Below, piece by piece: positions 10,538-41,158 of a stretch of 64,000 bases of DNA (position 1 is its first letter; each line of letters begins with the position of its first letter). Both the position numbers and the translations under genes were made by a program. This DNA is from Streptomyces abyssomicinicus (lineage in GTDB: Bacteria > Actinomycetota > Actinomycetes > Streptomycetales > Streptomycetaceae). The stretch covers positions 409,125 to 473,124 of the forward strand of contig NZ_BBZI01000006.1 in NCBI RefSeq assembly GCF_008974245.1. The letters run 5' to 3'. The notes beneath the pieces were generated by a model that was given only the letters and a program-made list of their open reading frames with translations, ran no database searches and was not told where the DNA came from.

Positions 10538-10609
10538 GCCCCCGTAGCTCAGGGGATAGAGCAACGGCCTCCGGAGCCGTGTGCGCAGGTTCGAATCCTG
10601 CCGGGGGCA
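10538..10609 (+). tRNA. tRNA-Arg (anticodon CCG)
   Basis: Cloverleaf folds cleanly. The acceptor is GCCCCCG/CGGGGGC, the anticodon stem ACGGC/GCCGT carries loop CTCCGGA (anticodon CCG), and the T-arm is GCAGG-TTCGAAT-CCTGC. The 3' CCA is not encoded. The 3' half is the integration site of the element that follows. Confidence 0.97.
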
Positions 10610-10610
10610 C
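10568..10610 (+). repeat. Left att site (attL) in the tRNA-Arg 3' end
   Basis: 43 bp from the anticodon loop to just past the tRNA end. It is repeated at 22624-22666 with a single difference (G at 10593, A at 22649, in the T-loop), and in decayed form at 28026-28066. Confidence 0.92.
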
Positions 10611-10628
10611 CTTGTATGAGGTGCCAGG

Positions 10629-10667
10629 AAGCCCCGCCACCAGCGAAAACGCTGAGGCGGGGCTTTT
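10629..10667 (+). terminator. Terminator after tRNA-Arg
   Basis: Nested hairpin: outer arms AAGCCCCGCC/GGCGGGGCTT, inner arms CAGCG/CGCTG with an AAAA loop, followed by TT. Canonical intrinsic terminator 19 bp after the tRNA; inside the left end of the element. Confidence 0.85.
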
Positions 10668-10885
10668 GCGTGCGTCCGGTGCGAGTGCAGCCGTGTGCCG
10701 CCGGAAGTGGCCCTGCGACAGGGTCTGTGGACTATTCGTGGACAGGGCCGGTCAGCGTTTCCGCAGGTCAACTGCTGAATTTCCGACGGCCCGTGGCCGA
10801 GCACGAAGCGCAGCGAGCCCCCCGGGGCCACCGGGGGGCTGATGTGGGTGAGGGTCTGCGGGTGTCCCAGGGCACACCGCGGACC

Positions 10886-12262
10886 TCAGTCGTACTCGCT
10901 GAGCAGCCTCTCGATCCGGCTGTTCGCCACCTCCTGGCGCCCGTCGAGGCACTTCGCGTACCGGCCCAGCAGCACCTCCACGGAGTTGCCCGCCCGTTCC
11001 GCCACCTCGGTCGGGTCGACGCCGGCGTTGAGCCAGGTCGAGAGCGCGGAGTGGCGGAGGTCGTACGGTCGGGCCGCCAGCGGTGAGGCGGCCGCAGCCG
11101 GGGGCAGCGCCAGGAGGCGGGCCTCCTGCCAGACGCGGTAGTACGTCGACGAGGGCACGACCGACCCCTTCTCCGTGAAGAACAGCCGCCCGTCCGCAGC
11201 CGTGCCGAACGTCTCCAGGTGCTCCCGGAACTCCGCCACCAACTGCGGCGGCAGCGGCACCCGGCGCACCTCCTCGACCGGCCGGTTCTTCAGGCCGCGG
11301 TCGTCGTGCGTCTCCCCCGAGTCGGTCCACTGCCTCCCCGCCGTGGGTCGGGTGCGGTGCAGGGTGGCACTCCCCCACCCCTGAGCCGGGAGCACCAGGT
11401 CGCTCTCCGAGAGCCCCACCGCCTCGGCCGGACGCAGGCCGCCGTAGTACATCGCGGCGAAGAACCCGACCAGGCGCCGGCCCCGAGCCCGGCGGTACCC
11501 CCCGACGTACGACACTGCGGCCAGCAGATTCCGCGCCTGCACCGGGTTGGCGACCACCCGGGGATCCACCTCCCCGGACACCTTCGGCTTCTGCCACCGC
11601 ACGGCCGTCACCGGGTTCTCCTGGAACTCACCCAGATCGACGGCGTAGTTGATCGCGTTGACGAAGGTCCGCCGCTTCCGTCGCACGGTCTCGGCCGCAG
11701 CGGCCCTCCCGTCCAGCTTGAGCTTCAGCGAGTCAAGGACTGCCCGCGCGGTGGCGGGCTCCGCCAGCTCGGCGAGTGGGCGGGATGCCTTGGCAACCCA
11801 GCGCAGGACGTTGAGCACGTCGTCGGGAACGTCGTCCCGGGCATCGGGCCCGGGCAGCACGAAGGCCCAATTGCGCAGGGCCCGCCGGATCTCCGTGTCC
11901 GTCGGCCGCCCTGGCCGCTCGGTGAGGAAGCCGAGGGTGACCGAGGCCAACGCCTCGTTGATCGCGTCCCTGGTGTTCGGGGCGGCGTGTGGCCACTTCA
12001 TCGCCAGGTACCGCAAGGCGAACTCGTACCAGGTGAGCGACGGCTTCTTCTCGTCCATCGAGGCCGGGAGGCCGCTCTCCGTGTCGAACTCCTCGCCCTC
12101 CCGCGTGGCCCACAGCAGCTTGGTCCGGAAACTCTCCGCGAGGCCCTTCGTGCGGAACTGCTCGGAGAAGACCTTCCCCGCCACGCGCCAGCGGACGTCG
12201 TACGAGCTCTTCTGGGTCGCGCGCTTGCGGATGCCCCAGACCTTCACGTCCAGCGACTTCAT
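10886..12262 (-). CDS. Tyrosine recombinase (AICE integrase)
   Basis: 458-aa site-specific integrase acting on the tRNA-Arg att site. It has an N-terminal arm-binding/SAM-like region and a C-terminal catalytic domain. Residues are box I Arg277 (MYYGGLRPAEAV), the PYDLRHSALSTWL motif (Arg403-His404) and the nucleophile Tyr435 in LLGRYAKCLDG. Tyr replaces the first box II His and Asn426 replaces the later His/Trp; both are tolerated in actinobacterial relatives. The ATG at 12262 overlaps the xis stop (ATGA). The frame is open far upstream through rep, but that part is a shadow. The 3' end lies 276 bp from the att core, the usual place. A degenerate paralogue is at 29.1-29.45 kb. Confidence 0.95.
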   Translation of the reverse strand: MKSLDVKVWGIRKRATQKSSYDVRWRVAGKVFSEQFRTKGLAESFRTKLLWATREGEEFDTESGLPASMDEKKPSLTWYEFALRYLAMKWPHAAPNTRDAINEALASVTLGFLTERPGRPTDTEIRRALRNWAFVLPGPDARDDVPDDVLNVLRWVAKASRPLAELAEPATARAVLDSLKLKLDGRAAAAETVRRKRRTFVNAINYAVDLGEFQENPVTAVRWQKPKVSGEVDPRVVANPVQARNLLAAVSYVGGYRRARGRRLVGFFAAMYYGGLRPAEAVGLSESDLVLPAQGWGSATLHRTRPTAGRQWTDSGETHDDRGLKNRPVEEVRRVPLPPQLVAEFREHLETFGTAADGRLFFTEKGSVVPSSTYYRVWQEARLLALPPAAAASPLAARPYDLRHSALSTWLNAGVDPTEVAERAGNSVEVLLGRYAKCLDGRQEVANSRIERLLSEYD

Positions 12263-12447
12263 GCCGACTCCAGTTGCCGCAGCCAGGTCATGAAGTCGCT
12301 CCGCCACACCCGCAGCTCGCCGTTGGGCAGCTTGAAGGCGGCCGGGCCGTTGCCGAGCTCGCGCCAGCGGTAGAACGTCCGCCGCGAGATTCCTCCCAGT
12401 TCGGCGAGGACCTGCGGGACGGTCATCAGCTCGTCTTTCACGGTCAC
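12259..12447 (-). CDS. Excisionase (MerR-like HTH, Xis)
   Basis: 62-aa winged-helix protein of the BldC/MerR-like excisionase type: MTVPQVLAELGGISRRTFYRW followed by the wing LPNGELRVWRSDFMTWL. It directs Int toward excision. It is locked between neighbours: its GTG at 12447 overlaps the rep stop (GTGA) and its stop overlaps the int ATG (ATGA), so rep-xis-int are translationally coupled. GTG at 12441 is an alternative start with better ribosome-binding-site spacing. Confidence 0.88.
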   Translation of the reverse strand: MTVKDELMTVPQVLAELGGISRRTFYRWRELGNGPAAFKLPNGELRVWRSDFMTWLRQLESA

Positions 12448-13814
12448 GCTCCCTTCTGGGACGACGCGGCGAGTTCTTCGCGGGCGGTGCGTCGGTTGAG
12501 GGCGATGCCACGGGCGATGGTGGCGGCGAGGACGGATTCGCCGGGGCTGTGGCCGTGGCCGGCGTAGCGCCAGTCGGCGAGGACGAGGGTGGTGTCGGGG
12601 TCGCGGTCCTCGAGGCCGAGGGCGGCGTGTTCCTGGGCGGAGCGGTAGTCGGCGCGGGCCTGGCGGAGGACGCCGAGGGTGGTGGAGTAGCGGCGGGACT
12701 TGGAGCTGAAGTGGCCGCGGAAGCCGAGCATGTGGGCCCAGGCCCACAGACGGCGGTCGGGGTAGAGGGGGTCGAGGGTCTTGCAGGCTGTGATGAGGCG
12801 GCGGGCGTGGGGCGGGACCTGGTGGCGGTCGAGCTCGCCGAGTTCGCCGATGCGGCGGTCCAGGGTGCCGGTGGTCTCGGCGGCCTTGGTGGCGTACTTG
12901 GCGATGTAGGAGGCGACGGCCTGCTCGGTGACGTCGTCGGTGTCGTCGCCGAAGGCGTGGATGGAGCGGACGTCGAGCTGGGCGCCCCACTGGAAGTGGC
13001 GCTCGGGCCGGTCGGCGGCGGGCGGGAGGGTGACGGTCGTGTAGGGGTGGGCCGCTGCGGCCTTGATCGCGGCGGTGAGGAGTTCGGTCGTGGCCCAGGC
13101 CGGAGGTCGGCTTCCTGGTCCTGCGGGGCCGTCGAGCCGGACCACGGCGTGAAAGTGGACGGCTCCGCGTTTCTGGAACTCGGCGACCTTGGCGTAGGAC
13201 AGCCGCAGGTACTCGGGGAGTTCGCGGCGGGTGATGCCTGCGGCGAGGGCGAGTTCGCGGCGCAGGCGGTTGGTGAAGCGGTGCCAGAGTTGGCCGGCCA
13301 GGTTGTTGAAGAGGACGGCACCCTCGTAGTCGTAGCGGTCCGGGTGGAGCGGCGTGCCCAGGGCCGGGTCGGTTTCGGTGTGCTGAGTGCCGCAGCGGCA
13401 GCGTCCGGAGGCGGGCCGGTTGTGGACCGGGCCGAAGGACGGTGCGGTGAGGGTGAGGAAGACCCGAGGTCCTTCGCGGACGGTGGCCGGGATGGCGCGG
13501 CGGTCATCTCCGGCGAGGCCGGCGCGGATGAGGTGGAAGGTGTCGCCCGCGTAGGTCCAGGCGCAGGAGGGGCAGCGGGAGGCCCTCCGGTTGCCGCATG
13601 CGATCCGCAGACGCCCGCCCGGCTCGGCGTCGGTCGAGTAGCGGTGCAGGGTGTCGCCGCTCGTCTTGTCCTGGGTGGCGGTCCAGCCGGACAGGTGGAT
13701 CGGGTTCGCGCAGCCTCCGGTGCGGTGGACCTGGTCGCGCCAGCGGTCGAAGCCGTCGGCCGATGCCACGCGGAGCAGGTCGCCGAGGGTGAGGGTGTCG
13801 AGGTCGCTAGGCAC
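12444..13814 (-). CDS. Rolling-circle replication initiator (RepSA-type)
   Basis: 456 aa, the length of pSAM2 RepSA. It carries a Cys cluster (ASRCPSCAWTYAG), an HxH metal motif (AVHFHAVVRLDG) and the nicking-tyrosine motif YIAKYATKAAE, as in actinobacterial RCR initiators. It nicks the double-strand origin of the excised circle. GTG at 13814 is chosen because AGGAG lies 7 nt upstream; the frame extends further but without signal. The preceding small gene overlaps it by 8 bp. Confidence 0.93.
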   Translation of the reverse strand: MPSDLDTLTLGDLLRVASADGFDRWRDQVHRTGGCANPIHLSGWTATQDKTSGDTLHRYSTDAEPGGRLRIACGNRRASRCPSCAWTYAGDTFHLIRAGLAGDDRRAIPATVREGPRVFLTLTAPSFGPVHNRPASGRCRCGTQHTETDPALGTPLHPDRYDYEGAVLFNNLAGQLWHRFTNRLRRELALAAGITRRELPEYLRLSYAKVAEFQKRGAVHFHAVVRLDGPAGPGSRPPAWATTELLTAAIKAAAAHPYTTVTLPPAADRPERHFQWGAQLDVRSIHAFGDDTDDVTEQAVASYIAKYATKAAETTGTLDRRIGELGELDRHQVPPHARRLITACKTLDPLYPDRRLWAWAHMLGFRGHFSSKSRRYSTTLGVLRQARADYRSAQEHAALGLEDRDPDTTLVLADWRYAGHGHSPGESVLAATIARGIALNRRTAREELAASSQKGA

Positions 13815-13995
13815 GGACCGTCTCCTGTCGCTTCGAAGTGACAGGGGTGCGTCCGGCTCCGCGGCAGGCAAGGCAGGGCACTGCCTTGGTACGCAGGAGT
13901 CCGCGGCGATCCCGGCCTGCGACGGTGACGGCCACGGCGGCGAATCCGTCACATGCTCGGCAGATGCGCCACGCCGGGTGGGACGAGTACGTCAT
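13807..13995 (-). CDS. Small Cys-motif protein upstream of rep
   Basis: 62 aa with two paired-cysteine motifs (CRACDG and CLACRGAG), probably a zinc ribbon resembling DnaJ-type CxxCxG knuckles. It overlaps the rep start by 8 bp and is co-transcribed. Small proteins in this slot are common in integrative elements; the role is not known. The ATG at 13995 has GGAAGGAC upstream. Confidence 0.65.
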   Translation of the reverse strand: MTYSSHPAWRICRACDGFAAVAVTVAGRDRRGLLRTKAVPCLACRGAGRTPVTSKRQETVRA

Positions 13996-14085
13996 GCTTG
14001 GTGGTCCTTCCGGATCTCTCGGTTAGGTAAGGGACGGCTCCCGGACGGCTGCTTCTTGGCGGTTGCGTGCCGCCCGGGGGCCGGG

Positions 14086-14289
14086 TTACTGCCCGGGGTG
14101 GAAGTCCTGGGCGTGGTCCTGCAGCCACTCGGCGATCTCGTCGGCCTCTTGTTGGTTCGCGGCGCGGAAGATGGCGGCCTCGCCGCATGAAATGGCTTCG
14201 GAGTGTCGGCCTTCTCGGGCTGCTCGGGCAGCCCGCTCGAGCAGGCGTTGCAGGTGTGGACGCATGGTGTTGCTGCCTCTCTTGTTCAT
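14086..14289 (-). CDS. Small hypothetical AICE protein
   Basis: 67 aa, helical and charged (LLERAARAAREGRHSEAISCGEAA), ending EWLQDHAQDFHPGQ. The ATG at 14289 overlaps the stop of the DUF2637 gene (ATGA). An internal ATG at 14265 has a better Shine-Dalgarno (GAGAGG) and could be the true start. Function unknown; position fits the spread/regulatory cassette of the element. Confidence 0.6.
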   Translation of the reverse strand: MNKRGSNTMRPHLQRLLERAARAAREGRHSEAISCGEAAIFRAANQQEADEIAEWLQDHAQDFHPGQ

Positions 14290-14936
14290 CCGAGTTGGGT
14301 GGCGATGGCCTCGGCGAGCGGCGCGGGGACGCCGAGCCGGGCGCGGAGGGTGTTGAGGTCGATCCGGTGGCCGGTGCGGGTGTGGTGCTCCTCGGCCAAG
14401 CGGCGGGCGTGTGCCACGAGTGCGGGCGGCACATCTGGAACGGCAACCGGCGGCGGTGCGGCTGGAGCCGTTGCTGTCGGCAGGGGCTCCAGTACCGGTG
14501 CTTCTGCAGGGACCTCCAGGACCGGCTCTGGTTCGTCGGTCTCCGCGCTCACTTCGCCGCCGGGTTCGGCGTGCTCGTGGTGGTGGCCGTGGGCGAGGAG
14601 GGTGCCGCCGAGGAAGGCGAGTGCCGGCCATCCGGCGACCCCGAGCCGCAGCCAGGTGGGCGGGTCGTCCAGGTTGAGGAGTCCGGCGGTGGCGATGTTG
14701 GCGCCGAGGGAGGCGGCCAGGGCGGTGAGGAACCAGAACCACACCAGCCGCGAGGAGCCCCCGGTTCGCAGGCGTCGCCAGGCCGCGACCATCAGCAGGT
14801 CGACGGAGACCGGGTAGGCCCACGCCTTCCAGTCGTCTTGTCCGGCCGCGGCAGCGAGGTCGTGGAGGTGGGCGAAGGACAGCGCACCGGCGATGAGGGC
14901 CTGGACCAGGACGGCGTCGAGGCGGATCCGGGACAC
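14286..14936 (-). CDS. DUF2637-type membrane protein (Spd-like)
   Basis: 216 aa. The N-terminal half has four hydrophobic segments (about residues 8-28, 40-52, 66-88 and 96-116), and there is a His-rich HGHHHEHAE stretch. A Pro/Glu/Ala linker follows, then a C-terminal helical domain (AHARRLAEEHHTRTGHRIDLNTLRARLGV) that looks like a HTH. DUF2637 proteins sit next to tra in Streptomyces plasmids and AICEs and are thought to help spread of the element through the mycelium. GTG at 14936 has AAGGAGA upstream. Confidence 0.78.
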   Translation of the reverse strand: MSRIRLDAVLVQALIAGALSFAHLHDLAAAAGQDDWKAWAYPVSVDLLMVAAWRRLRTGGSSRLVWFWFLTALAASLGANIATAGLLNLDDPPTWLRLGVAGWPALAFLGGTLLAHGHHHEHAEPGGEVSAETDEPEPVLEVPAEAPVLEPLPTATAPAAPPPVAVPDVPPALVAHARRLAEEHHTRTGHRIDLNTLRARLGVPAPLAEAIATQLG

Positions 14937-15023
14937 GAGGTCGTCTCCTTCGGTTTAAGGCATGCGTCGGGTAGGGACCTGGCGCACGAGGGCGGTTGCG
15001 CCGACCGGGAGGGGTGAAGAGAG

Positions 15024-16379
15024 TCAGGCCGTGCTGGAGGCCGCGGCCTTGGCCAGCGGCCCGCGCTGCGGGGCGACGACGTCGAACGTCGGCCGGAAGA
15101 GCGCGAGTTCCGGGATCTGTGGTGTGCGGTGGGCGTGCTTGTTGCAGACGTCGACCGCGTGCCTGAGTGAAATGTGGGGGGCGCGGATGCGGGCCCAGCC
15201 GCCGGAGGAGTCACCGGCGACGGCGAGGCCGGGTATGCGGGTGCTGATCTGGGTGGCGGCCTGGACGGCGTCGGCGGAGATGTCCTCGAAGGCCATCTTG
15301 GCGGAGGCTTCGTCGTTGACGCGGTGGGCGGTGCGGCCGGTGAGCTGGGCGCGGAGCATGGTGATGCCCTTGCCGAGTTCGGAGCCGAAGCGCTGCCCGC
15401 ACACCTCCAGGTAGATGCCGGCCGCACGGCCGAGCTGGGCGAGACGGACCAGGGCGGTGACGATCCGGTCCCGCCGCTTCTCCTCCTCCTTGCTCGCGAA
15501 CAGGGCGAGCTCGGCGACCTCGTCCACCAGGACCACCACCGGCGTGGGGCGCCGGTCGGCGGGCAGGTCCCAGATATCGGCGGCGATCTCCGCGTCCGGC
15601 ACACTCGCCGCAACCCGCTGCTCGGCCCGGATCACCTGATAGACGGCCTCCATCCGCCGGATCAGCGCGTCCAGCAGCTCGGCCGCGTCGTCCGGGTTGT
15701 CCGCCAAAGCCGAGAACCGGCGCGCGAGGGGGAACAGCTCGACGCCCTGCTTGCAATCGATCCCCACCAACGCCACATCCTGCGCTGCCAGTTCCGCGAC
15801 CAGATGACGCTGGTAGACGGACTTCCCCGACTTCGTCGCCCCGATCGTCAGCGCGTGCGGGACCGTCCGGTAGTCCCGGAAGTGCACAGCCCCGTCCTCC
15901 CGCAGAGCTACCGGCACCCGCATCGGCTCACGCCGCACCCGCGGCAGGTACACCCGCTTCAGGACGTCGTAGGCGGTCATCCGCAGCTCGACGACCCCGG
16001 CCCGCACCTCCCGCGACGTCACCCCGTACATCCCGAAGCCGTGACGCAGCCGGTCCGCCGCCTGCGCGAACTGCGGTGCGTCCTGCCCGGGGCAGAGCCG
16101 CACCCGCAGCACCAGCCCCGTCCGCGTCACCCGCGTCCGCAGAACCTTCGGCACCCGCGGCCGGGGCGCCGACCGCTTCTGCAGCCTGGCGAGGGCTACC
16201 CGCCAGCGGGAGGGAGGGACGGAGAGCCCGCAGCCCTCCATCACCCCCGCATAGCGGTGAGCTACCCGCGTCATGGCGACCAAGGCACCGAAAGTCAGCC
16301 AGTACCAGGCCGGGCGCCGCCACCGCAGAACCCCCGCGCCGACGGCCACGACCAGGACCACGAGCCCGAGCTCCCGCAT
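15024..16379 (-). CDS. FtsK/SpoIIIE-like DNA translocase (TraSA/TraB type)
   Basis: 451-aa membrane-anchored ATPase that by itself pumps double-stranded DNA between hyphae in Streptomyces conjugation. Two N-terminal hydrophobic segments (residues 3-18 and 25-37) are followed by the motor domain, with Walker A GATKSGKS (180-187) and Walker B VVVLVDE (281-287). The ATG at 16379 is chosen because GGAAG is upstream and it starts 1 bp after the stop of the SCO3933-type gene; the frame's earlier codon lacks a signal. Confidence 0.93.
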   Translation of the reverse strand: MRELGLVVLVVAVGAGVLRWRRPAWYWLTFGALVAMTRVAHRYAGVMEGCGLSVPPSRWRVALARLQKRSAPRPRVPKVLRTRVTRTGLVLRVRLCPGQDAPQFAQAADRLRHGFGMYGVTSREVRAGVVELRMTAYDVLKRVYLPRVRREPMRVPVALREDGAVHFRDYRTVPHALTIGATKSGKSVYQRHLVAELAAQDVALVGIDCKQGVELFPLARRFSALADNPDDAAELLDALIRRMEAVYQVIRAEQRVAASVPDAEIAADIWDLPADRRPTPVVVLVDEVAELALFASKEEEKRRDRIVTALVRLAQLGRAAGIYLEVCGQRFGSELGKGITMLRAQLTGRTAHRVNDEASAKMAFEDISADAVQAATQISTRIPGLAVAGDSSGGWARIRAPHISLRHAVDVCNKHAHRTPQIPELALFRPTFDVVAPQRGPLAKAAASSTA

Positions 16380-16380
16380 G

Positions 16381-16740
16381 TCACGCGGCTTCCGGCCTCG
16401 GCACCGCACCACCGGCCACCAGCGACGTCACCGCCACCGCCCGAAAAGCGATCCCGTGCCGCTGCCGACCGTTGAACTCCGACTCCCACGGCCGCGCCAC
16501 CAACTGCGTCAGCGCCACCGGGGTCCCCATCACCAGGTCACCGGAGATCCCCGTCTCGGGGACCGCCACGGTCAGGATCTCCACCTCGCCGAACGCCGCG
16601 AACATCACGTCCACGGTCATCAGCTTCACACCGTCGGCGTCGACGGCGATCTCACCGGTCCGCCGGTCACGGAGCTTGATCTCAGGAGCTTTGGCGACCA
16701 TCACGGTCGCCGCGGACGTGTCGACAGGGATCTGGCGCAT
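16381..16740 (-). CDS. SCO3933-family regulatory protein
   Basis: 119 aa starting MRQIPVDTSAATVMVAK, the characteristic opening of this AICE family. A beta-rich fold follows, with RDRRTGEIAVDADGVKLMTV and ARPWESEFNGRQRHGIAFRA. It always precedes tra in such elements; it may be involved in transfer or copy control, but no biochemical role is known to me. It is the first gene of the leftward operon driven from the operator region at 16.8 kb. Confidence 0.85.
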   Translation of the reverse strand: MRQIPVDTSAATVMVAKAPEIKLRDRRTGEIAVDADGVKLMTVDVMFAAFGEVEILTVAVPETGISGDLVMGTPVALTQLVARPWESEFNGRQRHGIAFRAVAVTSLVAGGAVPRPEAA

Positions 16741-16783
16741 GGGCGCACTCCTCCACTGATGAGCGATGCCACCCTACCGGCAG

Positions 16784-16925
16784 CATCTCTAGAGATGTTT
16801 CTAGTGAAGCGGCGTCGACTCCACCTGTCAATCAGCTCTCTAGAGATGTTGGCGAAGGCGTGGCGGGGGAACCGATCAACATCGGTTGCCATGTGTGCGG
16901 CAGCTGCCCGTAAGGTGTCTAGAGA
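16784..16925. promoter_or_regulatory. GntR operator cluster in the divergent tra/gntR promoter
   Basis: Three sites share the core TCTAGAGA. CATCTCTAGAGATG (16784-16797) is a perfect palindrome, TCTCTAGAGA (16837-16846) is a second, and a half-preserved copy sits at 16918-16925 just before the gntR ribosome-binding site. A minus-strand TTGACA (16831-16826) with a 17-nt spacer to TTCACT lies between the first two, so repressor there would block the leftward rep/tra operon. A separate ACCGAT-N4-ATCGGT dyad is at 16871-16886. Confidence 0.75.
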
Positions 16926-16941
16926 AGCGAAGGAGCATTCG

Positions 16942-17700
16942 ATGACCAACGAGCGGGCTGACCGCCGGCCCAAGTACCAGCGCATCGCGGATGAACTGAA
17001 GGAGGACATCCGCGCTGGTCAGTACGTTCCTGGTGATCGACTCCCCGGCGAGAACGACATCATGGCCACCTACGACGTGGCCCGGATGACCGCCCGCCAG
17101 GCGCTCGGCGTCCTGCAGAGCGAGGGCATCGCCGAGGCCCGCAAGGGCGCCGGCGTATTCGTCCGCAGCTTTCACCCGATCCGGCGCCGCGGCATCCAGC
17201 GACTGTCCGAGCGGCAGTGGGGATCAGGCAAGTCGATCTGGTCCACGGAGACCGAGAACCGCGACCTCACCGTCGACCAGCTGGAGGTCACCGAGGAAGA
17301 AGCCGCGGAGGACATCGCCCTCGCCTTGGACGTAGAGCCCGGCTCGCCGGTCTGCGTTCGCAGCCGTCGCTTCGTCCTGGACGGCAAGCCCGTCCTCCTG
17401 GCCCGCTCCTACCTTCCCGCGACCATCGTCGCCGGCTCCGCCATCACCCAGGAGGACACCGGCCCCGGCGGCACCTACGCCCGCCTGGCCGAACTCGGCC
17501 ACAAGCCGGTCCACTTCCGCGAAGAGCTCCGGTCCCGGATGCCCCTGGCCGCAGAGGCCGAGCGCCTCAACCTCTCCATGGGCACCCCGGTCATCCTCAT
17601 CACCCGTACCGCGTTCGCCGAGGAAGGCCACCCCGTCGAGTTCAACCGCATGACCCTCGACTCCGCGGCCTACATCCTTGAGTACGACTTCGACGCCTGA
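16942..17700 (+). CDS. GntR-family transcriptional regulator (KorSA-like)
   Basis: 252 aa. The N-terminal winged helix (KYQRIADELKEDIRAGQYVP through MTARQALGVLQSEGIAEARKG) is followed by a UTRA ligand-binding domain in HutC/FarR style (VRSRRFVLDGKPVLLARSYL). In pSAM2 the equivalent KorSA represses transfer and replication genes. The ATG at 16942 has AAGGAG 7 nt upstream and the third operator copy overlaps its leader, suggesting autoregulation. It is divergent from the transfer operon. Confidence 0.9.
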   Translation: MTNERADRRPKYQRIADELKEDIRAGQYVPGDRLPGENDIMATYDVARMTARQALGVLQSEGIAEARKGAGVFVRSFHPIRRRGIQRLSERQWGSGKSIWSTETENRDLTVDQLEVTEEEAAEDIALALDVEPGSPVCVRSRRFVLDGKPVLLARSYLPATIVAGSAITQEDTGPGGTYARLAELGHKPVHFREELRSRMPLAAEAERLNLSMGTPVILITRTAFAEEGHPVEFNRMTLDSAAYILEYDFDA

Positions 17701-17736
17701 ACTGTGCGAAGCGGTAGGAGAAGAGGCGGCGCAAGG

Positions 17737-18189
17737 TCAATTGCTGGGGCGCCAGCGGAACCAGTAATCAAGGCCTTCGACCCGGTAGCGGTCGTTGTCG
17801 TCGAACCGCATCTCGCCTACAAGCCGCCTAGCTCCGCTGGGCTCCCGGCGCCAGGACGCCAGGGCCTCGTCCAACTCGTCGTAACGGGCGTCCATGCCAC
17901 CGCTGCCCGGGTGCGTCTCCGGCCCCGTCAGCCCAGCCTCGTAGCGCGCGTTCCATTCGACAAATAGCGCCCATTGCTCGCGCTCCAACGCCGCCACGGC
18001 GTCACTTGCCGGCCAGACAACGTACTCGCCAGGTTCGTCGGTACGGTCGTAACTGCAGGCCTGGAAGTAGTGGGGCTCGCTCTCCACATCGGCGAGTCCG
18101 AAGCGTGGCCCGTCGTACCACTCCAACTCGACGTGCACGCGCTCGAACCCGTCGGCTATCAACCGTGCTTCGTCCCAGCTGTCAGTCAC
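17737..18189 (-). CDS. Hypothetical protein (AICE cargo)
   Basis: 150 aa, acidic and rich in aromatic residues (ELEWYDGPRFGL, DYWFRWRPSN). It has no transmembrane segment and no motif I recognise. GTG at 18189. It faces gntR tail-to-tail and sits between the regulatory genes and the HD/HSP90 cargo, so it is probably an accessory gene. Confidence 0.7.
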   Translation of the reverse strand: MTDSWDEARLIADGFERVHVELEWYDGPRFGLADVESEPHYFQACSYDRTDEPGEYVVWPASDAVAALEREQWALFVEWNARYEAGLTGPETHPGSGGMDARYDELDEALASWRREPSGARRLVGEMRFDDNDRYRVEGLDYWFRWRPSN

Positions 18190-18395
18190 CCACGCAGACT
18201 ACTGGGGACCGCCCCCTGCAGGGTCTGTCGAAGCGGGGACAGACTTTCCCTACTCCATCAAGGCGGCTCGCTCCGCTCCCCGCGCGGCCCGGCCGCCGTC
18301 CGGGCCTGCGCTCCTGTCTCCGCCCCGCTCCAGCCCGGCCGACGCCCGCACCGTTGCCCGAACGTCCCGGCATTGCGTGGACTCGATCTCCGCGC

Positions 18396-21161
18396 TCACT
18401 CGTGGAGATCCGGACGCTTAAAGAGATGGGCCGCCGCCATGAGCGGCCTGTCTTGGAACCTGCCCACCTCCACACGCCTTACCCGAGAACGTCTGAAGCA
18501 CCTGTACGTGTCATCACGGTTGACACCCCAAGCTTCCTCTACCGCCACACCAAACATATGGGTGAGCGCTTGGCGCGATCCGAACTTCTCGTTCGTTGGC
18601 CAATTGAAAGTCGTCGCACCACCCGAGACATAGAAATAGCGACTCATGGCGAACGATAGGACATTTTCATTGGGATCTGCCACAAAATCTTCCATACCGA
18701 GTTCGATTCGGAACGCGTATGGATCAACGACCAAGAATTCTGATCTAGTAGCTAGCCATTTCACGAGTTCGGAATAATCAATCCATCCCGTTTTGGTGCG
18801 CCAACAGGGAAGGTGTCGAGCGTCTCTATCGAGGGTCCACGACATTTCTGCAAATGCCACAGCCCAACCATCTTCACTCCTAATTGGAACGTCTGCGATC
18901 CTTGCCATTTCCACATCGATCCATTCAGCCATAGATGAAGTGCTGGCGATGGGTACAGCGAATTCCCGAGCGGCCCCATGTGGCCTACCAAGCAGAATTC
19001 CAGCCACGTTCTGCATACTCGTCCCCGTATGGGCGGGACCTGCTGTGACTATTGATGCCGTGGGATACACGTAGTCGAATTCCAACATCTGGGGGTCGCA
19101 TATTGTAATTCTGCCAGCAGGCCTTCCAAGCGCATCATGAACAACCCGGAGACGATCTCCTACGTGAACCGCGATCTCTTCAGCAAATTCCACCCCATCC
19201 CAGAAGTCGTCATCGTCTTCCTCGTCGCGCATTGGGGGGGTGGGCTGCTCCTCATCGTCCAGTCCATTCTCAGGAAGGGCGAGCATTCGACGCATCAACT
19301 TGACTCCGTCCATCGATATCCACTCCTGAGCAGAAATCGTGCACGCTACCTGCCGAATCCCAATGCCATCACTTGACCAAATATCAACCTCAGAAGCTGG
19401 CATCAAGTACCGCAGCAAAATACTAAGGGTATTCCATTCTTCGACTTTCCAAGACATCCTGTCAATCTTCGCCCGCAGGAACACCGGATCTTCCTCGGTG
19501 GAAGGCGAGCCGCAGAGGCCAGCATCCAAGCGGACCTTGATGGTCGTTCCGGGCTCCTCAAGCTGTTCATCACCCGAGGCCCTGCGAAGAATCGGTCGAT
19601 GCTCTACCCCGTCACTGAATTCAAGTATCCATGTATCTGCTGGCCCTGCAGAAACAGGACGTGACGTGACTTGAACACTGCGCCCCATCATGAAGACAGA
19701 GAAGAATCCAATACCGAACCGTCCTGAGGGTTCAAATCTGCTCGCTAGAAGACCGGGGTTCTCGCGCACCACATCTGAACTCAGCCAAGACGTATTACCG
19801 AAGTCGAGCAACTTACCACCCAAGATAGCGGGCGTCATCCCTATTCCATTGTCATTGCATGCCAGCCACTTTTCACCTTCCCTATCCTCAAGCCATACAG
19901 TAACTCTTCCGGCAAAAGGCCGGCCGCCACGATAGTCGGCCAGCGCTTCTCGCGCTTTTACGGCATCACACGCGTTCGTAACTATTTCTCTTAGACCGAC
20001 GAGCCAATTCTCTCCGTAGAGCTCACTCCCACCAAGGCGCCTCACCAGTCCAGCCACGTCATCAACTTTGATTTTTGCCTCGACGGGCTCCCAATCACGG
20101 CATGGCGCTACGACGCTGAAAGCCCTCGGTGATTCGACATTGGCAACGCCTCTCGCAGAGAGTGTCGCGCGCCCATTGTCGGCAAGAATGCTGTCAGTGT
20201 TGCGCAGTTCCTCGTCAACCATCGCCAACGTTTCGTAGGCGAGCCACCAGGCTGACATTTCTTGCGAGGAGAATCCATCTGGCGCCGTAAAAACAAGTCG
20301 CCCATTTTTCAGGTAGGGGCGCTGTATCCGGGTCTGAAATAGCCAATGATCACTGGAAAGTGGGGGTAGATCTCGTACAGCCGAAAGCATGCTAGGTGCT
20401 CGCGTTGAGTCGAGATGCGCTGCGTCAGCTGTCCGGAGAAGAGAAGCTAGAACGAGTGTGTCGACGCGCCAATCGATCGGAGCGAAGCCAGGAGCCCCAA
20501 CTGGTGTAGAAAGCCTCTTTGTTATTTCGTCTGAATTCCAGTGATGGCTCGCGGCCACCAGGCCGATAAGTCGACCGTAGGCTTGTCTAATTTCAGGGTC
20601 CGTGATGAGATATTCCGTACTCCTGCCCATGGACGCCCAAGATGCCAACGGGAGATCTTCTGCAATTTCTGCATGCAGCAAGCGCAACAGTTGCTTATCA
20701 GCCTTGAGTGCGAGTTCTTCTGGCGGTGACGCTAGTTCCAAAGGGTGCGGAGGCCGGCCTAGCTGTCTTCTAATTTCGCTGGCCAGCGCATCAGGCCACT
20801 CCCGGCGATCCCGGAGACTTTTTCCTGATAGTTGGTGGGCGGCTCTGCTCATTGCCAGATCGTGGACCAGTATCGCGCCGCCCAAAACGTAGGCTTCCGC
20901 AGGGTTCAGAGCATGTTCTGGCCCAGCAATGTGATTCGCTATCTCCCATAGAGAGAAGCAATGGCTTATGTCATGCTGCGTAAATTCCGGCATGTCGCCA
21001 GCGATCTCATTCGCAAGCACTCCAGCCCTTTCCTCCATGTCAAGAAAAGCTCTTCTTAGCCTATCTCGCGCTTGGGAGTCGCCGGTGAAGACATCTCGAC
21101 CGAAGGCGCTGCGCCAAAGTGCTGGGCGTGCGGAATCTTCAGGTTGCATCATGCTCTTCAT
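18396..21161 (-). CDS. HD-domain / HSP90-like (GHKL) ATPase fusion, conflict-system type
   Basis: 921 aa. The N-terminal HD phosphohydrolase-like domain shows QHDISHCFSLWE (H63-D64, H67), LVHDLAM (H100-D101), SHHW (about 206) and RTADAAHLD (D246). A complete GHKL ATPase starts near residue 385: N-box REIVTNACDAVKA (E392, N396), G1 CNDNGIGM (D437), G2 SGRFGIGFFS (480-489). The C-terminal 400 residues resemble the HSP90 middle region but contain an acidic tract (DEEDDDDFWDG) and no known domain. HD plus HSP90-like fusions are predicted bacterial conflict/immunity proteins. The gene is markedly less GC-rich than the core. It lies 88 bp downstream of the 3-TM gene in the same direction. Confidence 0.82.
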   Translation of the reverse strand: MKSMMQPEDSARPALWRSAFGRDVFTGDSQARDRLRRAFLDMEERAGVLANEIAGDMPEFTQHDISHCFSLWEIANHIAGPEHALNPAEAYVLGGAILVHDLAMSRAAHQLSGKSLRDRREWPDALASEIRRQLGRPPHPLELASPPEELALKADKQLLRLLHAEIAEDLPLASWASMGRSTEYLITDPEIRQAYGRLIGLVAASHHWNSDEITKRLSTPVGAPGFAPIDWRVDTLVLASLLRTADAAHLDSTRAPSMLSAVRDLPPLSSDHWLFQTRIQRPYLKNGRLVFTAPDGFSSQEMSAWWLAYETLAMVDEELRNTDSILADNGRATLSARGVANVESPRAFSVVAPCRDWEPVEAKIKVDDVAGLVRRLGGSELYGENWLVGLREIVTNACDAVKAREALADYRGGRPFAGRVTVWLEDREGEKWLACNDNGIGMTPAILGGKLLDFGNTSWLSSDVVRENPGLLASRFEPSGRFGIGFFSVFMMGRSVQVTSRPVSAGPADTWILEFSDGVEHRPILRRASGDEQLEEPGTTIKVRLDAGLCGSPSTEEDPVFLRAKIDRMSWKVEEWNTLSILLRYLMPASEVDIWSSDGIGIRQVACTISAQEWISMDGVKLMRRMLALPENGLDDEEQPTPPMRDEEDDDDFWDGVEFAEEIAVHVGDRLRVVHDALGRPAGRITICDPQMLEFDYVYPTASIVTAGPAHTGTSMQNVAGILLGRPHGAAREFAVPIASTSSMAEWIDVEMARIADVPIRSEDGWAVAFAEMSWTLDRDARHLPCWRTKTGWIDYSELVKWLATRSEFLVVDPYAFRIELGMEDFVADPNENVLSFAMSRYFYVSGGATTFNWPTNEKFGSRQALTHMFGVAVEEAWGVNRDDTYRCFRRSRVRRVEVGRFQDRPLMAAAHLFKRPDLHE

Positions 21162-21249
21162 GCTGACTACAGCCCACCAATCTATTCCAGACTTCGGACA
21201 AAATGCTGCTGGCCGCGTAGGGCGAGAACCTGCGTATCGACGATGCTGA

Positions 21250-21732
21250 TCATTTCATCGCCGGGATAACGAATATCCCGGCAAGTAGCCACATCATGAC
21301 CACTGAAGTCAGAATGAACAGGAGGATGTAGGTCTCGTACCATCGGAAGAAATTCTTCGCCTGTGGGCGTTCGCGGAATCCTTGACGCACCATTTCGTCG
21401 GTGATGTCGCATTCCTCGTTGCGATAGTCAAGCCAAGTCAACGAACCCACAATTACCAGCACTGCAGTATAAGCTGCCACTACGGTCGCCAAAATCAGCA
21501 ATCCGATAACGCCACCGCGAGCCACGTCGGGTGATATTTCCCACTTACGGTACCCTACGAACAAGGCGAGGGTCGCAGCAACAATCGCCGTTGCGAGGGT
21601 CTGGTAGATCCCTAGGAAGCGATACGTGTTTTCGTTTACCGCGTGAATCTGCTGGAGAATGTACCGATATCGCTCTAGCGCGAAATCGTGTCGCGTTTCA
21701 TCGTCTGTTCGACTACCCGCATCCGATGCCAT
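21250..21732 (-). CDS. Three-TM protein paired with the HD/HSP90 ATPase
   Basis: 160 aa. A cytoplasmic helix (ALERYRYILQQIHAVNENTY) is followed by hydrophobic spans at about residues 38-60, 73-98 and 132-156. The layout recalls SLATT-like membrane effectors, which pair with nucleotide-sensing proteins in bacterial immunity; that is inference. The frame is open further upstream, but ATG at 21732 has GAGGTGGGG before it and upstream sequence is structured noncoding DNA. Composition is A/T-rich like its neighbour, so the two probably arrived together. Confidence 0.75.
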   Translation of the reverse strand: MASDAGSRTDDETRHDFALERYRYILQQIHAVNENTYRFLGIYQTLATAIVAATLALFVGYRKWEISPDVARGGVIGLLILATVVAAYTAVLVIVGSLTWLDYRNEECDITDEMVRQGFRERPQAKNFFRWYETYILLFILTSVVMMWLLAGIFVIPAMK

Positions 21733-22623
21733 ATGCGCCCCACCTCGATCACTCTTGCCGAGCACTATAATCTGATCGCTTGGTGGCGGTCCCAGCCTTG
21801 GCAACACTTCCGACATCGGCGGCGTCTGATCGTCTGTCTGGTGGGGCTCCGCCCCAGACCCCGGCCCTCCCTCTGAGGGGGGTGGCCGCAAGCTTGCGGT
21901 GTTGTTCTGGTGGGTCGCGGGCAGGGTCCCTCGCCGGCCGGTCACCCTGCGGGCGTACCCGGAACCTCCGAGGGGCGCCAAGGCCAAGCGCAAGCGTCAC
22001 GATGTGAGCCTTGGCACCCCTCGGAGAACCCGGGTGCGGCGGAGCTGCCCGACGGACGAGGGACCCCACCCGCTCAGGCCCCAAGTCTGCCTGCGGCAGG
22101 CCGGCCTGGCTTCCCGTGGCGTACTGCATCTGGGTCCGCACGCCGCTGTGCTTTCGTCCGCGGCGCTTGCGCCTCCCCGCGCCGCCCTGGGCGCTGGAAC
22201 CATTCCAGCGCCTGACCGGGGGCCGGACCGAAGGGGGGAAGGGCGAGGTGACGCTGCCAGAGCAAGGCGCTCATCGGCAGCTCGCGGTGCGCCAAGCATC
22301 AGGGGCCGTGGTCCCCGTACGGGGTGCAGCAGAGGAAGAAGAAGGAAGCCGAAGCGAAGCTGCGGAAGCTCCGGAAGAAGCGGTGACGGAGCCCACCGGC
22401 TGACGAGGCTGACATCCACGAGTGACATCAACGAGCCCAGCCGTGGGCAGCATCGTGCGGTCGGCGGTGGCCCGGCCAGGTCCGCGGATTTGCTCCCCGG
22501 TCGGTCGGTCCGGATGATCTCCTAAAGCGGTGCTCACTTGGCTGTGGACCATCTGTGGACGGAGAGACGCGGGAGTATGTCAGTCAGGCACCTGACCTGC
22601 GCGGAAGCCGCGAGATCCCACGC
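21733..22623. other. Dyad-rich noncoding zone at the right end of the AICE
   Basis: About 890 bp with several open frames but no consistent codon bias or ribosome-binding sites. It is packed with dyads: GGGGC-TCC-GCCCC (21843), the 14-bp palindrome CCGCAAGCTTGCGG (21886-21899), a long imperfect inverted repeat (21924-22066) and GGCGCTGGAA-N3-TTCCAGCGCC (22190-22212). Near 22324-22386 one frame reads VQQRKKKEAEAKLRKLRKKR-stop but has no start signal. Plausible roles are the transfer locus (clt/oriT) or a single-strand origin. Confidence 0.6.
21924..22066. repeat. Long imperfect inverted repeat
   Basis: 28-nt arms at 21957-21984 and 22008-22035 match at 24 positions. Outer arms GGGTCCCTCG (21924-21933) and CGAGGGACCC (22057-22066) are perfect and almost symmetrically placed. 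Together they make a 143-bp cruciform-capable structure. Confidence 0.8.
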
Positions 22624-22666
22624 CCTCCGGAGCCGTGTGCGCAGGTTCAAATCCTGCCGGGGGCAC
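22624..22666 (+). repeat. Right att site (attR)
   Basis: 43-bp copy of the tRNA-Arg 3' half, identical to 10568-10610 except A for G in the T-loop. Marks the right boundary of the intact element. There is no tRNA 5' half here. Confidence 0.92.
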
Positions 22667-22720
22667 TCGCCCAGGATCAGCGAAAAACAGTGCTGACCAG
22701 GGCGGATGCCGACATGAGAG

Positions 22721-22754
22721 AGCGGGCCCCAGTCTCACTGGGTCCCGCTCTTTG
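22721..22754 (+). terminator. Hairpin with T-rich tail after attR
   Basis: AGCGGGCCCCAG/CTGGGTCCCGCT with one mismatch, 5-nt loop, followed by CTTTG. A near copy of this hairpin sits at the left edge of the IS (23731-23751). Confidence 0.6.
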
Positions 22755-22870
22755 TCGTTGATTCGCGCTGATCGCGATAGACCTGCGATAGGAAAGCCTG
22801 CGCAGGGATGGGTCCCAGGCAGTAGAAAAATGAGGGCACGGCCCGCCTACTCCAGCGATACTTCAGGACC

Positions 22871-23653
22871 ATGTCATCACTTGAAGATCGCGTGAGGAAG
22901 TGGTTGTCGGACCAGGGCTACCCACTGGAGATGCGCGTTGCTCGCATCGTGGGAGCGGCCGGGGCCGGTTGGGACCATGGACGGGTCTACACGGATCCAG
23001 TCACGGATAAGACACGCGAGATCGACCTCTTCGGCTACTTCGACGGGCCCCGACAGGAGCTGTCCGTCCACGTGGTCTTCGAGTGCAAGCACTCGCGCGA
23101 CAAGCCCTGGGTCTTGTTCGGCACGGATCGGCCCGGCCTGACACCCACAGGACTGGCCCGGTCAACCCCAGCGACTCCGCTGGTCAAGAAGGCGTTAGCC
23201 AGGACACTCAGAGGGCGGCGCATGTTGTCGCCAGTCACTGACATGACCATGTTTCGGGCGCCGGATGGGATCACGGGGTTCAACCTTGCTCGCGCGCACA
23301 CGGACAACCAGGACGCCGCATTTCACGCTGTGCGAGGAGTCTCCGCAGCCGCTGAGGAAACCGCACGAGACATCGGAAGTCACGGACACGCAGTCCTCTA
23401 TCTCCCCGTTGTCGTCATCGACACGCCGCTAATCAGGTGCTTTCTTCCCGCAGAAGAAGAAGACGTGCAGCTCGAGCAGGTGGAGCGAGGGGTACTGCTA
23501 ACGTCCTCAAGACCGGGTTCGTACACGTTCATTCACGTGGTAACAGTCGAAGCACTCCCCTCCTTCATGAGCCAAGTTGCAGTTGAGAGTGCAGACTTGC
23601 GGACGCTGTTGCAGCCTCACCTCAAGTACATTCGAGATCTTCCCGACAAATAG
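22871..23653 (+). CDS. Putative PD-(D/E)XK nuclease-fold protein
   Basis: 260 aa. The N-terminal 80 residues match a restriction-endonuclease fold: Glu20 in a helix, Asp52 in REIDLFGYF, and the E-x-K pair in VVFECKHSR (Glu71, Lys73), in the right order and spacing. The rest (81-260) is unassigned. It lies just outside attR in a decaying accessory segment. A defence or mobile-DNA nuclease role is possible. The ATG at 22871 has AGGA nearby. Confidence 0.65.
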   Translation: MSSLEDRVRKWLSDQGYPLEMRVARIVGAAGAGWDHGRVYTDPVTDKTREIDLFGYFDGPRQELSVHVVFECKHSRDKPWVLFGTDRPGLTPTGLARSTPATPLVKKALARTLRGRRMLSPVTDMTMFRAPDGITGFNLARAHTDNQDAAFHAVRGVSAAAEETARDIGSHGHAVLYLPVVVIDTPLIRCFLPAEEEDVQLEQVERGVLLTSSRPGSYTFIHVVTVEALPSFMSQVAVESADLRTLLQPHLKYIRDLPDK

Positions 23654-40561: not shown

Positions 40562-41158
40562 CTACCGGTCGAGGGCCAGCTCGGTGGAGAGCCCCGGAAT
40601 GTGTGACCTGGCGTCTGCGATGAAGCCGTAGATCAACCTCCGGGACTCGTCTCGTGCCCGATCCAACTCGGCCCGCGACGCCGCCCGGTCGATGCCGTCG
40701 GCCGCCTTGAGTGCCTCACGTCCGAGGGAGGCCAACTCGGGCGAGTCGGTCAGAAGTTCGGCGCGGAACATCGCCTCCATGGCCGCAGCCCTCAAACGCT
40801 GGGCTTCCCTGCGCAGTTCATGGATCTCGGTCTCGCTCGCCACGCGTCCGTCATGGCCCCTGTCCGCGAACCAGTGATCCATCTGCCCGCGGCGGTAGTT
40901 GGCCAGGGCACCGCCGAACGCGCAGTAGGCGTCTATCCGTTCCTGCCTGAGCTTCTCGTTCCGAGCGGTCTCCTCCGCGCGTCGCAGGGTGTTGCGCTGG
41001 AACAGGTGAGTCGCTCCCGCGCCGAGGAGCGTGCCCAGCACTGCGATGAGGCTTGCGGCGATGACGACCATGCCGCCAGCGAACCACATGGCACCGGCCG
41101 CGGGCACAGGTTCGATCAGGTAGAAGGAACAGCCGCCGCCGACGCCCCCGGCGACCAC
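40562..41158 (-). CDS. Hypothetical membrane protein with coiled coil
   Basis: 198 aa. One or two N-terminal hydrophobic segments (MWFAGGMVVIAASLIAVLG) are followed by a long charged helix (LRRAEETARNEKLRQERIDAY) and a helical C-terminal domain. GTG at 41158; ATG at 41089 just before the membrane span is an alternative. The plan resembles the 28353 protein. No function assignable. Confidence 0.65.
   Translation of the reverse strand: MVAGGVGGGCSFYLIEPVPAAGAMWFAGGMVVIAASLIAVLGTLLGAGATHLFQRNTLRRAEETARNEKLRQERIDAYCAFGGALANYRRGQMDHWFADRGHDGRVASETEIHELRREAQRLRAAAMEAMFRAELLTDSPELASLGREALKAADGIDRAASRAELDRARDESRRLIYGFIADARSHIPGLSTELALDR

Follow-up and report, generated by a model that had tools for sequence, protein, structure and literature searches.

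The window analysed here is a 64,000-nt stretch of the genome of Streptomyces abyssomicinicus, and it contains a pSAM2-type AICE bounded by attL and attR (Table 1). The GntR/UTRA regulator of the element is, from its position, presumably KorSA-like. Directly ahead of its gene the sequence TCTCTAGAGATGTT occurs at 16786-16799, 16837-16850 and 16916-16929 (two exact copies and one at 71%), and these repeats look like the operator of the gene. The large cargo gene and its small neighbour form a candidate defence module. Between this cargo and attR sits the palindrome that is the subject of the present analysis.

Table 1. Features of the AICE and of its right end, in window positions.
Feature	Position	Strand	Remarks
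attL core	10568-10610	+	inside tRNA-Arg(ccg) gene 10538-10611
Tyrosine integrase	10886-12262	-	domain matches under curated cut-offs
RepSA-type replication initiator	12444-13814	-	PF20199, E 1.9e-145
FtsK/TraB-type DNA translocase	15024-16412	-	
GntR/UTRA regulator	16960-17700	+	start approximate
AICE cargo: gene with HD-CE domain and HSP90/gyrase-like HATPase domain	18396-21161	-	
Small cargo gene	21250 to ~21732	-	hydrophobic stretches (by eye)
Conserved stretch	~21842-22106		whole in 12 Streptomyces plasmid records
Small GC hairpin GGGGCTCCGCCCC	21843-21855		3' of core in rep-sense reading; minus strand carries shared CGGAGCC motif
Small hairpin CCCTC-N5-GAGGG	21865-21879		pairing judged by eye
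14-bp perfect palindrome CCGCAAGCTTGCGG	21886-21899		conservation not evident by eye
Family A hairpin core (proposed sso)	21917-22073	-	better-folding strand is minus, the repSA sense
Inner hairpin	21954-22038		arms 21954-21984/22008-22038, 31 nt, 84% complementary, spacer 23 nt
Small GC dyad GCCTGCGGCAGGC	22089-22101		5' of core in rep-sense reading
attR core	22624-22666	+	43-bp copy of tRNA-Arg(ccg) 3' end; 42/43 identical to attL, one mismatch

Structure and conservation of the palindrome

The inverted-repeat arms, the 14-bp palindrome and the 10-bp perfect hairpin (22190-22212) described for 21733-22623 in the original prediction are all present, and the outer arms (21917-21944/22046-22073) are 28 nt long and 79% complementary. 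When 21905-22085 was folded, none of 200 shuffles was equally stable in any of three settings (z -6.4 for the plus strand and -8.0 for the minus strand with RNA parameters, and -5.5 for the plus strand with DNA parameters). A scan of 10601-22700 in 180-nt windows ranked the one at 21901 highest, with z -4.19 on the minus and -3.03 on the plus strand; since the runner-up reached only -2.35, the claim that no other region of the element has this structure holds. The extent of the predicted zone had to be narrowed: the palindrome is real, but the conserved part spans only ~21842-22106, the remainder of 21733-22623 forms no part of the conserved unit, and the hairpin at 22190-22212 falls outside it. 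Calling the zone noncoding also needs a qualification, in that the longest frame of the neighbouring minus-strand gene (21250-21993, TTG start) enters the hairpin, although by eye an ATG at ~21732 is the more likely start. Searched against Rfam 15 with E up to 1, the region 21000-23200 gave no match reaching a gathering score; the sub-threshold matches were to two animal microRNAs and to one plastid element at the att site, and in loci L300 and L303 Rfam recognized only a tRNA.

Within 22080-22640 there is a short frame ending near 22387 (...RCAKHQGPWSPYGVQQRKKKEAEAKLRKLRKKR) with high third-position G+C, which could be the remaining 3' part of a gene since lost. When translations of 22080-22640 were compared with the proteins of the other loci, the only match was to the window's own ORF; no counterpart was thus found here of the HTH regulator that many group-1 loci have after the element.

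A blastn search of 21733-22700 against 72,556 plasmid records returned 17 matches, 12 of them within ~21842-22106 and five in the att region. The first 28 bp of the conserved stretch are a short repeat common among Streptomyces genomes and were therefore removed from the core. The 157-bp core, the ends of which are those of the outer arms, was found in 30 of 392 Streptomyces genomes (E <= 1e-5), including the window's own genome, where family A has one full copy. From an alignment of 24 copies we obtained a hairpin of 43 pairs, and in 28 of these at least one sequence was changed on both sides with the pairing kept. By eye, other copies carry different GC dyads at the place of the 22089-22101 dyad. 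When 296 genomes of the class, from 114 genera, were searched with the covariance model R1, 16 genomes from five genera had copies; five of the positive genomes belong to the genus of the window and 11 to four genera of another family (f20). Family A is a covarying hairpin family of Streptomyces and one other actinobacterial family. None of the phage records searched for the element matched, and viral contigs gave one match, to a 19-base pattern. An exact pattern was found in 101 stretches of genome contigs, among those listed mostly in Streptomyces; as unrelated bacteria carry it too, no count was taken from it.

On several Streptomyces plasmids (L032, L033, L034, L100, L103, L266 and L267) family A copies or RepSA AICE genes adjoin Rhs/polymorphic-toxin genes. 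At some of these loci the element and an HTH gene are present without AICE genes, as if an AICE uses that place or was lost from it.

Strand preference was assessed in 74 copies of family A, representing 73 distinct sequences. Left out of this set were a second NZ_CP107959 copy at 40873, the near-identical plasmid L101, the genome copy L094, L073 (the twin of L072), L080 (the same place as L035), and the truncated or weak copies L086, L088, L091, L095:1563, L098, L099, L112 and the second of L245. Models A1 and R1 had been built on the plus strand ahead of the energy comparison. With RNA parameters the strand opposite to the modelled one, which is the rep-sense strand, was more stable in 73 of 74 copies, with one tie; DNA parameters gave 67 of 74, with six reversed and one tie. 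Measured against dinucleotide shuffles in 61 of the copies, z was lower on the better-folding strand in 55 (RNA) and 53 (DNA), and in the same 61, with RNA parameters, wobble pairs accounted for 10-13% of the pairing there, as opposed to 3-4% on the opposite strand. No such bias was displayed by the remaining structured windows of 20 AICE loci (57/121 at z < -2, 25/46 at z < -2.5 and 10/16 at z < -3), among which one copy of the family B hairpin described below had been left.

Hairpins of unrelated sequence in the corresponding position of other AICEs

A rep gene was found within 16 kb of family A in 23 loci, eight of them in f20. It lay on the matching strand in all 23, and the hairpin was 5' of it in 22; only a weak 135-bit fragment in L068 departed from this order. 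For the remaining 51 copies, arrays included, no rep was found in the stretch examined. RepSA was present in 55 of 61 Streptomyces genomes, the window's own included, so that most AICEs must be without family A. We fold-scanned twenty RepSA loci that had no R1 match, two of which came from the window's own genome. In nine of them the top window reached z <= -5 and folded more stably on the rep-sense strand, and a second hairpin of ~150 nt (family B) was common to these nine; it lay 0.3-1.6 kb beyond GntR in the eight where GntR was located. A third hairpin (family C) was found in L303, L311, L312 and L317, as well as in the three plasmids L262, L263 and L264. The three families showed no mutual same-strand similarity above chance (lowest E 0.11). 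The rep-sense strand was more stable in 13 of 13 copies of B and 8 of 8 copies of C, with both RNA and DNA parameters. Six of the twenty loci had no B or C place near RepSA; three of these (L301, L305 and L306) displayed other structures with z -3.5 to -3.8, and the other three (L302, L313 and L315) had none below -3. The window's own genome contains three AICEs, one each with A, B and C, and family B also occurs on pMR2 of Micromonospora rosaria, where rep is on the matching strand.

Among plasmids, the closest RepSA relative of the window (L265, CP075613, 73.8% identity) carries hairpin B and not A. Judged from this sequence, related AICE backbones seem to swap hairpins with one another.

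The original prediction had called for a comparison across related elements. In this comparison, A, B or C lies within 16 kb of 66 of the 101 near-full-length RepSA loci in the 61 genomes (A 4, B 29, C 34, one locus carrying both B and C), and all 69 hairpin-RepSA pairs within that distance share polarity and order, with the hairpin upstream of rep. One B and one C sequence served as queries in the survey. Pairing used five of the eight A places in the 61 genomes (three array-type copies in G023 and G025, with no RepSA nearby, and a weak partial match in G057 were not entered) together with 48 B and 53 C places, and left out reverse-strand echoes and short or weak fragments (24 B and 23 C). 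Seven of these 47 fragments lie within 16 kb of RepSA; six agree and one disagrees, which brings the agreement to 75 of 76 pairs. The disagreeing fragment (G024:C18:106727) matches over 128 bp at 72% identity and lies on the other strand; its contig carries an agreeing C copy too. RepSA was absent within 16 kb of 18 of the 48 B, 18 of the 53 C and one of the five A places. Conversely, 35 of the 101 RepSA loci had none of A, B and C; these may in part be cut by contig ends and in others hold further families. The counts should be interpreted with some caution since the copies of one family share ancestry and are not independent. Consequently, we place weight on the finding of three unrelated hairpins that all have one polarity, and on their persistence in more than one host family, rather than on the raw numbers.

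The flanks of the hairpins were compared as well. In 70 of 93 copies (A 54/74, B 12/12, C 4/7), the rep-sense strand carries the motif CGGAG[ACG]C in the 150 nt that lie 3' of the hairpin; on the 5' side one of the 93 has it, and among random 150-mers its frequency is 8.4%. In group-1 copies of A the motif lies inside a short GC hairpin common in Streptomyces at large. Mean promoter scores in the 150 nt 5' of the hairpin did not exceed those of shuffles (8.60/8.63 for A, 8.92/9.03 for B and 8.50/8.88 for C), and single 5' flanks scored at least 10 in 9% of A, 17% of B and 29% of C copies, the share among shuffles not having been computed. When the stem was searched for -35/-10 pairs on either strand, none of 74 A copies scored at least 10 and the mean was not above that of shuffles. 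As a positive control, eight of nine of the promoters downstream of array copies reached 10.

Arrays of family A on conjugative-type plasmids

Family A also occurs in several copies on plasmids. The circular plasmid NZ_CP108590 carries nine, eight in one orientation and one reversed near the array end; the eight same-strand copies end 197-207 nt ahead of annotated starts, among them those of genes for DUF3560, ParB_N, methyltransferase and ArdC proteins. A related array of ten copies, nine plus one reversed, is found on contig G653:C7. Both arrays are immediately preceded by a Replic_Relax ORF and an FtsK/HerA-like ATPase. NZ_CP107959 has three copies and carries T4SS genes and a MobA/VirD2-type relaxase; from the mobC/relaxase place on this plasmid, a leading-region position with the transferred strand as template is plausible. 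Downstream of the hairpin, NZ_CP108590 and the examined copies of L089-L097 have a canonical promoter and a common leader. Neither is present at the reversed end copies examined, which keep the structure inside or beside coding sequence; the NZ_CP107959 copies are followed by different sequence. The array copies have no RepSA nearby, and their better-folding strand is the template strand of the downstream genes.

The array operons of L037 and L105 (NZ_CP108590) share a common promoter and leader with a small hairpin, GGGGATGGCAGCCCC, which suggests that the ArdC, ParB_N, DUF3560 and methyltransferase genes are co-regulated.

A plain single-strand origin would not be required so many times over, and it is no explanation for arrays of nine or ten copies in which the end copy is reversed. 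One way to reconcile the two would be priming of second-strand synthesis across each operon. We tentatively suggest, at well below even odds, that family A is a portable single-strand-initiation cassette, serving as the single-strand origin in rolling-circle AICEs and as a set of priming sites in plasmid arrays. If so, each array copy would render the next promoter, with its anti-restriction or establishment operon, double-stranded first when single-stranded DNA enters the cell, and the array cassette would correspond to Frpo but do without the folded promoter.

The single-strand origin reading and its alternatives

In rolling-circle plasmids the displaced strand, as a general rule, has the sense of rep. 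We consider it probable, at roughly 60%, that the palindrome is the single-strand origin (sso, or minus origin) of the pSAM2-type AICE, from which second-strand synthesis is started on the displaced strand. RepSA would drive rolling-circle replication of the excised circle and the rep-sense strand would be displaced; on that strand 21917-22073 would fold into the long hairpin, with the small GC hairpins 3' of the core, and a host priming enzyme would use the folded structure to start the second strand. The active form would be single-stranded DNA, and the hairpin in that form would recruit a priming enzyme other than RNA polymerase. Since the stem holds no promoter-like hexamer pair above shuffles, a primase-type start is likelier than a folded RNA-polymerase promoter.

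The observed basis of this reading consists of the structure, its conservation and covariation, the strand, the polarity, the place relative to repSA and the two unrelated hairpins at the same place. What we found is a noncoding hairpin that is orientation-specific, with constant polarity to rep, on a carrier that replicates as a rolling circle through RepSA. R1 found nothing in pIJ101, the only known sso compared. To our knowledge, the known sso families are unrelated to one another. The definition of the sso and its priming routes are given in PMC4595007, where it is described as orientation-specific and, in most rolling-circle plasmids, upstream of the dso. Moreover, the sso (sti) of pIJ101 is treated, and RNA-polymerase-independent priming of pSN22 reported, in PMC4170104, and AICE replication and transfer are described in PMC3218068. 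We found no open-access paper on how the displaced strand of a RepSA AICE becomes double-stranded; the older pSAM2 literature may treat it.

The arrays could instead be primary and the AICE copy derived, as in a single-strand-activated element of the Frpo/ssi type, in which the adjoining region is made double-stranded first, or a folded promoter is formed, so that adjacent establishment (anti-restriction) operons are switched on early. The spacing of the eight NZ_CP108590 copies to their genes and the better-folding strand as template agree with this, and the array genes parallel the leading-region anti-defence genes that Frpo serves according to PMC11541004. We nevertheless hold it to be unlikely. 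Not one of 74 stems attains the score that eight of nine downstream promoters do, and in group-2 copies a canonical promoter follows the hairpin, which therefore does not have to act as one; that downstream promoter and the empty stem speak against array copies being Frpo promoters. The Replic_Relax ORF and ATPase ahead of the arrays do not fix the transferred strand, and the account of AICEs as movers of double-stranded DNA in PMC3218068 also counts against this reading. More doubtful still is a structured regulatory RNA made from the rep-sense strand, the DNA palindrome being merely its gene. Strong covariation and wobble pairs at the frequency of structured RNAs on the better-folding strand would fit such an RNA equally well, but the mean 5'-side promoter signal is no higher than in shuffles, even if some single copies reach 10, no Rfam family was matched, and the reversed array-end copies retain the fold in or beside coding sequence.

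Of the two functions originally proposed, a clt/oriT or a rolling-circle origin, the origin is the one favored by the strand preference, the place 5' of RepSA and the two unrelated families found there. A clt, as a double-stranded site bound by the Tra translocase, is very unlikely. The site does have noncoding inverted repeats on a Tra-type element, and the clt loci described in PMC3583192 have inverted repeats too, so that what follows is not proof; those loci, however, are found within or next to tra or kor genes and contain several short direct repeats. Here the direct repeats comprise eight families of only two copies each and no cluster of short ones. The hairpin is distant from tra, prefers a single strand, can be multi-copy, occurs on a plasmid with T4SS and relaxase genes, and has three unrelated sequences at one place. 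Slighter still are the chances of a boundary terminator or insulator that blocks outside transcription into the AICE operons. It would be well placed, near attR and, on the strand of tra, rep and int, upstream of all three, and the RNA of that strand folds best; but it is much longer and more conserved than a terminator requires, no T run follows it by eye, cargo and the opposite-strand GntR gene lie between it and tra, and array copies point away from the operon that follows them. Least credible of all is a dispersed, palindromic MITE-like repeat with no function for its carrier. Some plasmids do hold several copies in both orientations, yet the place and polarity in AICEs are constant, the window's own genome has one full copy, the pairs covary and the spacing to starts in NZ_CP108590 is fixed.

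In conclusion, unrelated hairpins at the same place and in the same orientation across AICEs suggest a general part of these elements that has been overlooked. RepSA AICEs are very common in Streptomyces, and the three hairpin families constitute a ready list of testable origins as well as a landmark for AICE limits. Different hairpin families are also a possible basis for the presence of several AICEs in one genome, such as that of the window. Through the arrays, conjugative plasmids and anti-restriction genes are tied to this signal as well.

Like the Streptomyces clt loci, the hairpin is a noncoding site that has inverted repeats and is carried by a Tra-type element, and it differs from them in having no repeated short motifs, in its distance from tra, in its strand bias and in a copy on a T4SS plasmid. 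Like Frpo/ssi promoters it is folded, is repeated upstream of anti-restriction and establishment genes, and folds better as template strand; in contrast to them it has no -35/-10 in the stem, is followed by a canonical promoter, and in most AICE copies is without such an operon. To the sso of pIJ101 (sti) and sso1 of ICEBs1 it corresponds in being noncoding, structured on one strand and of one polarity, upstream of rep on rolling-circle elements. Unlike these it is a much longer single hairpin, with a promoter-free stem and no match to pIJ101; here, three unrelated families occupy one place, and family A occurs in arrays as well.
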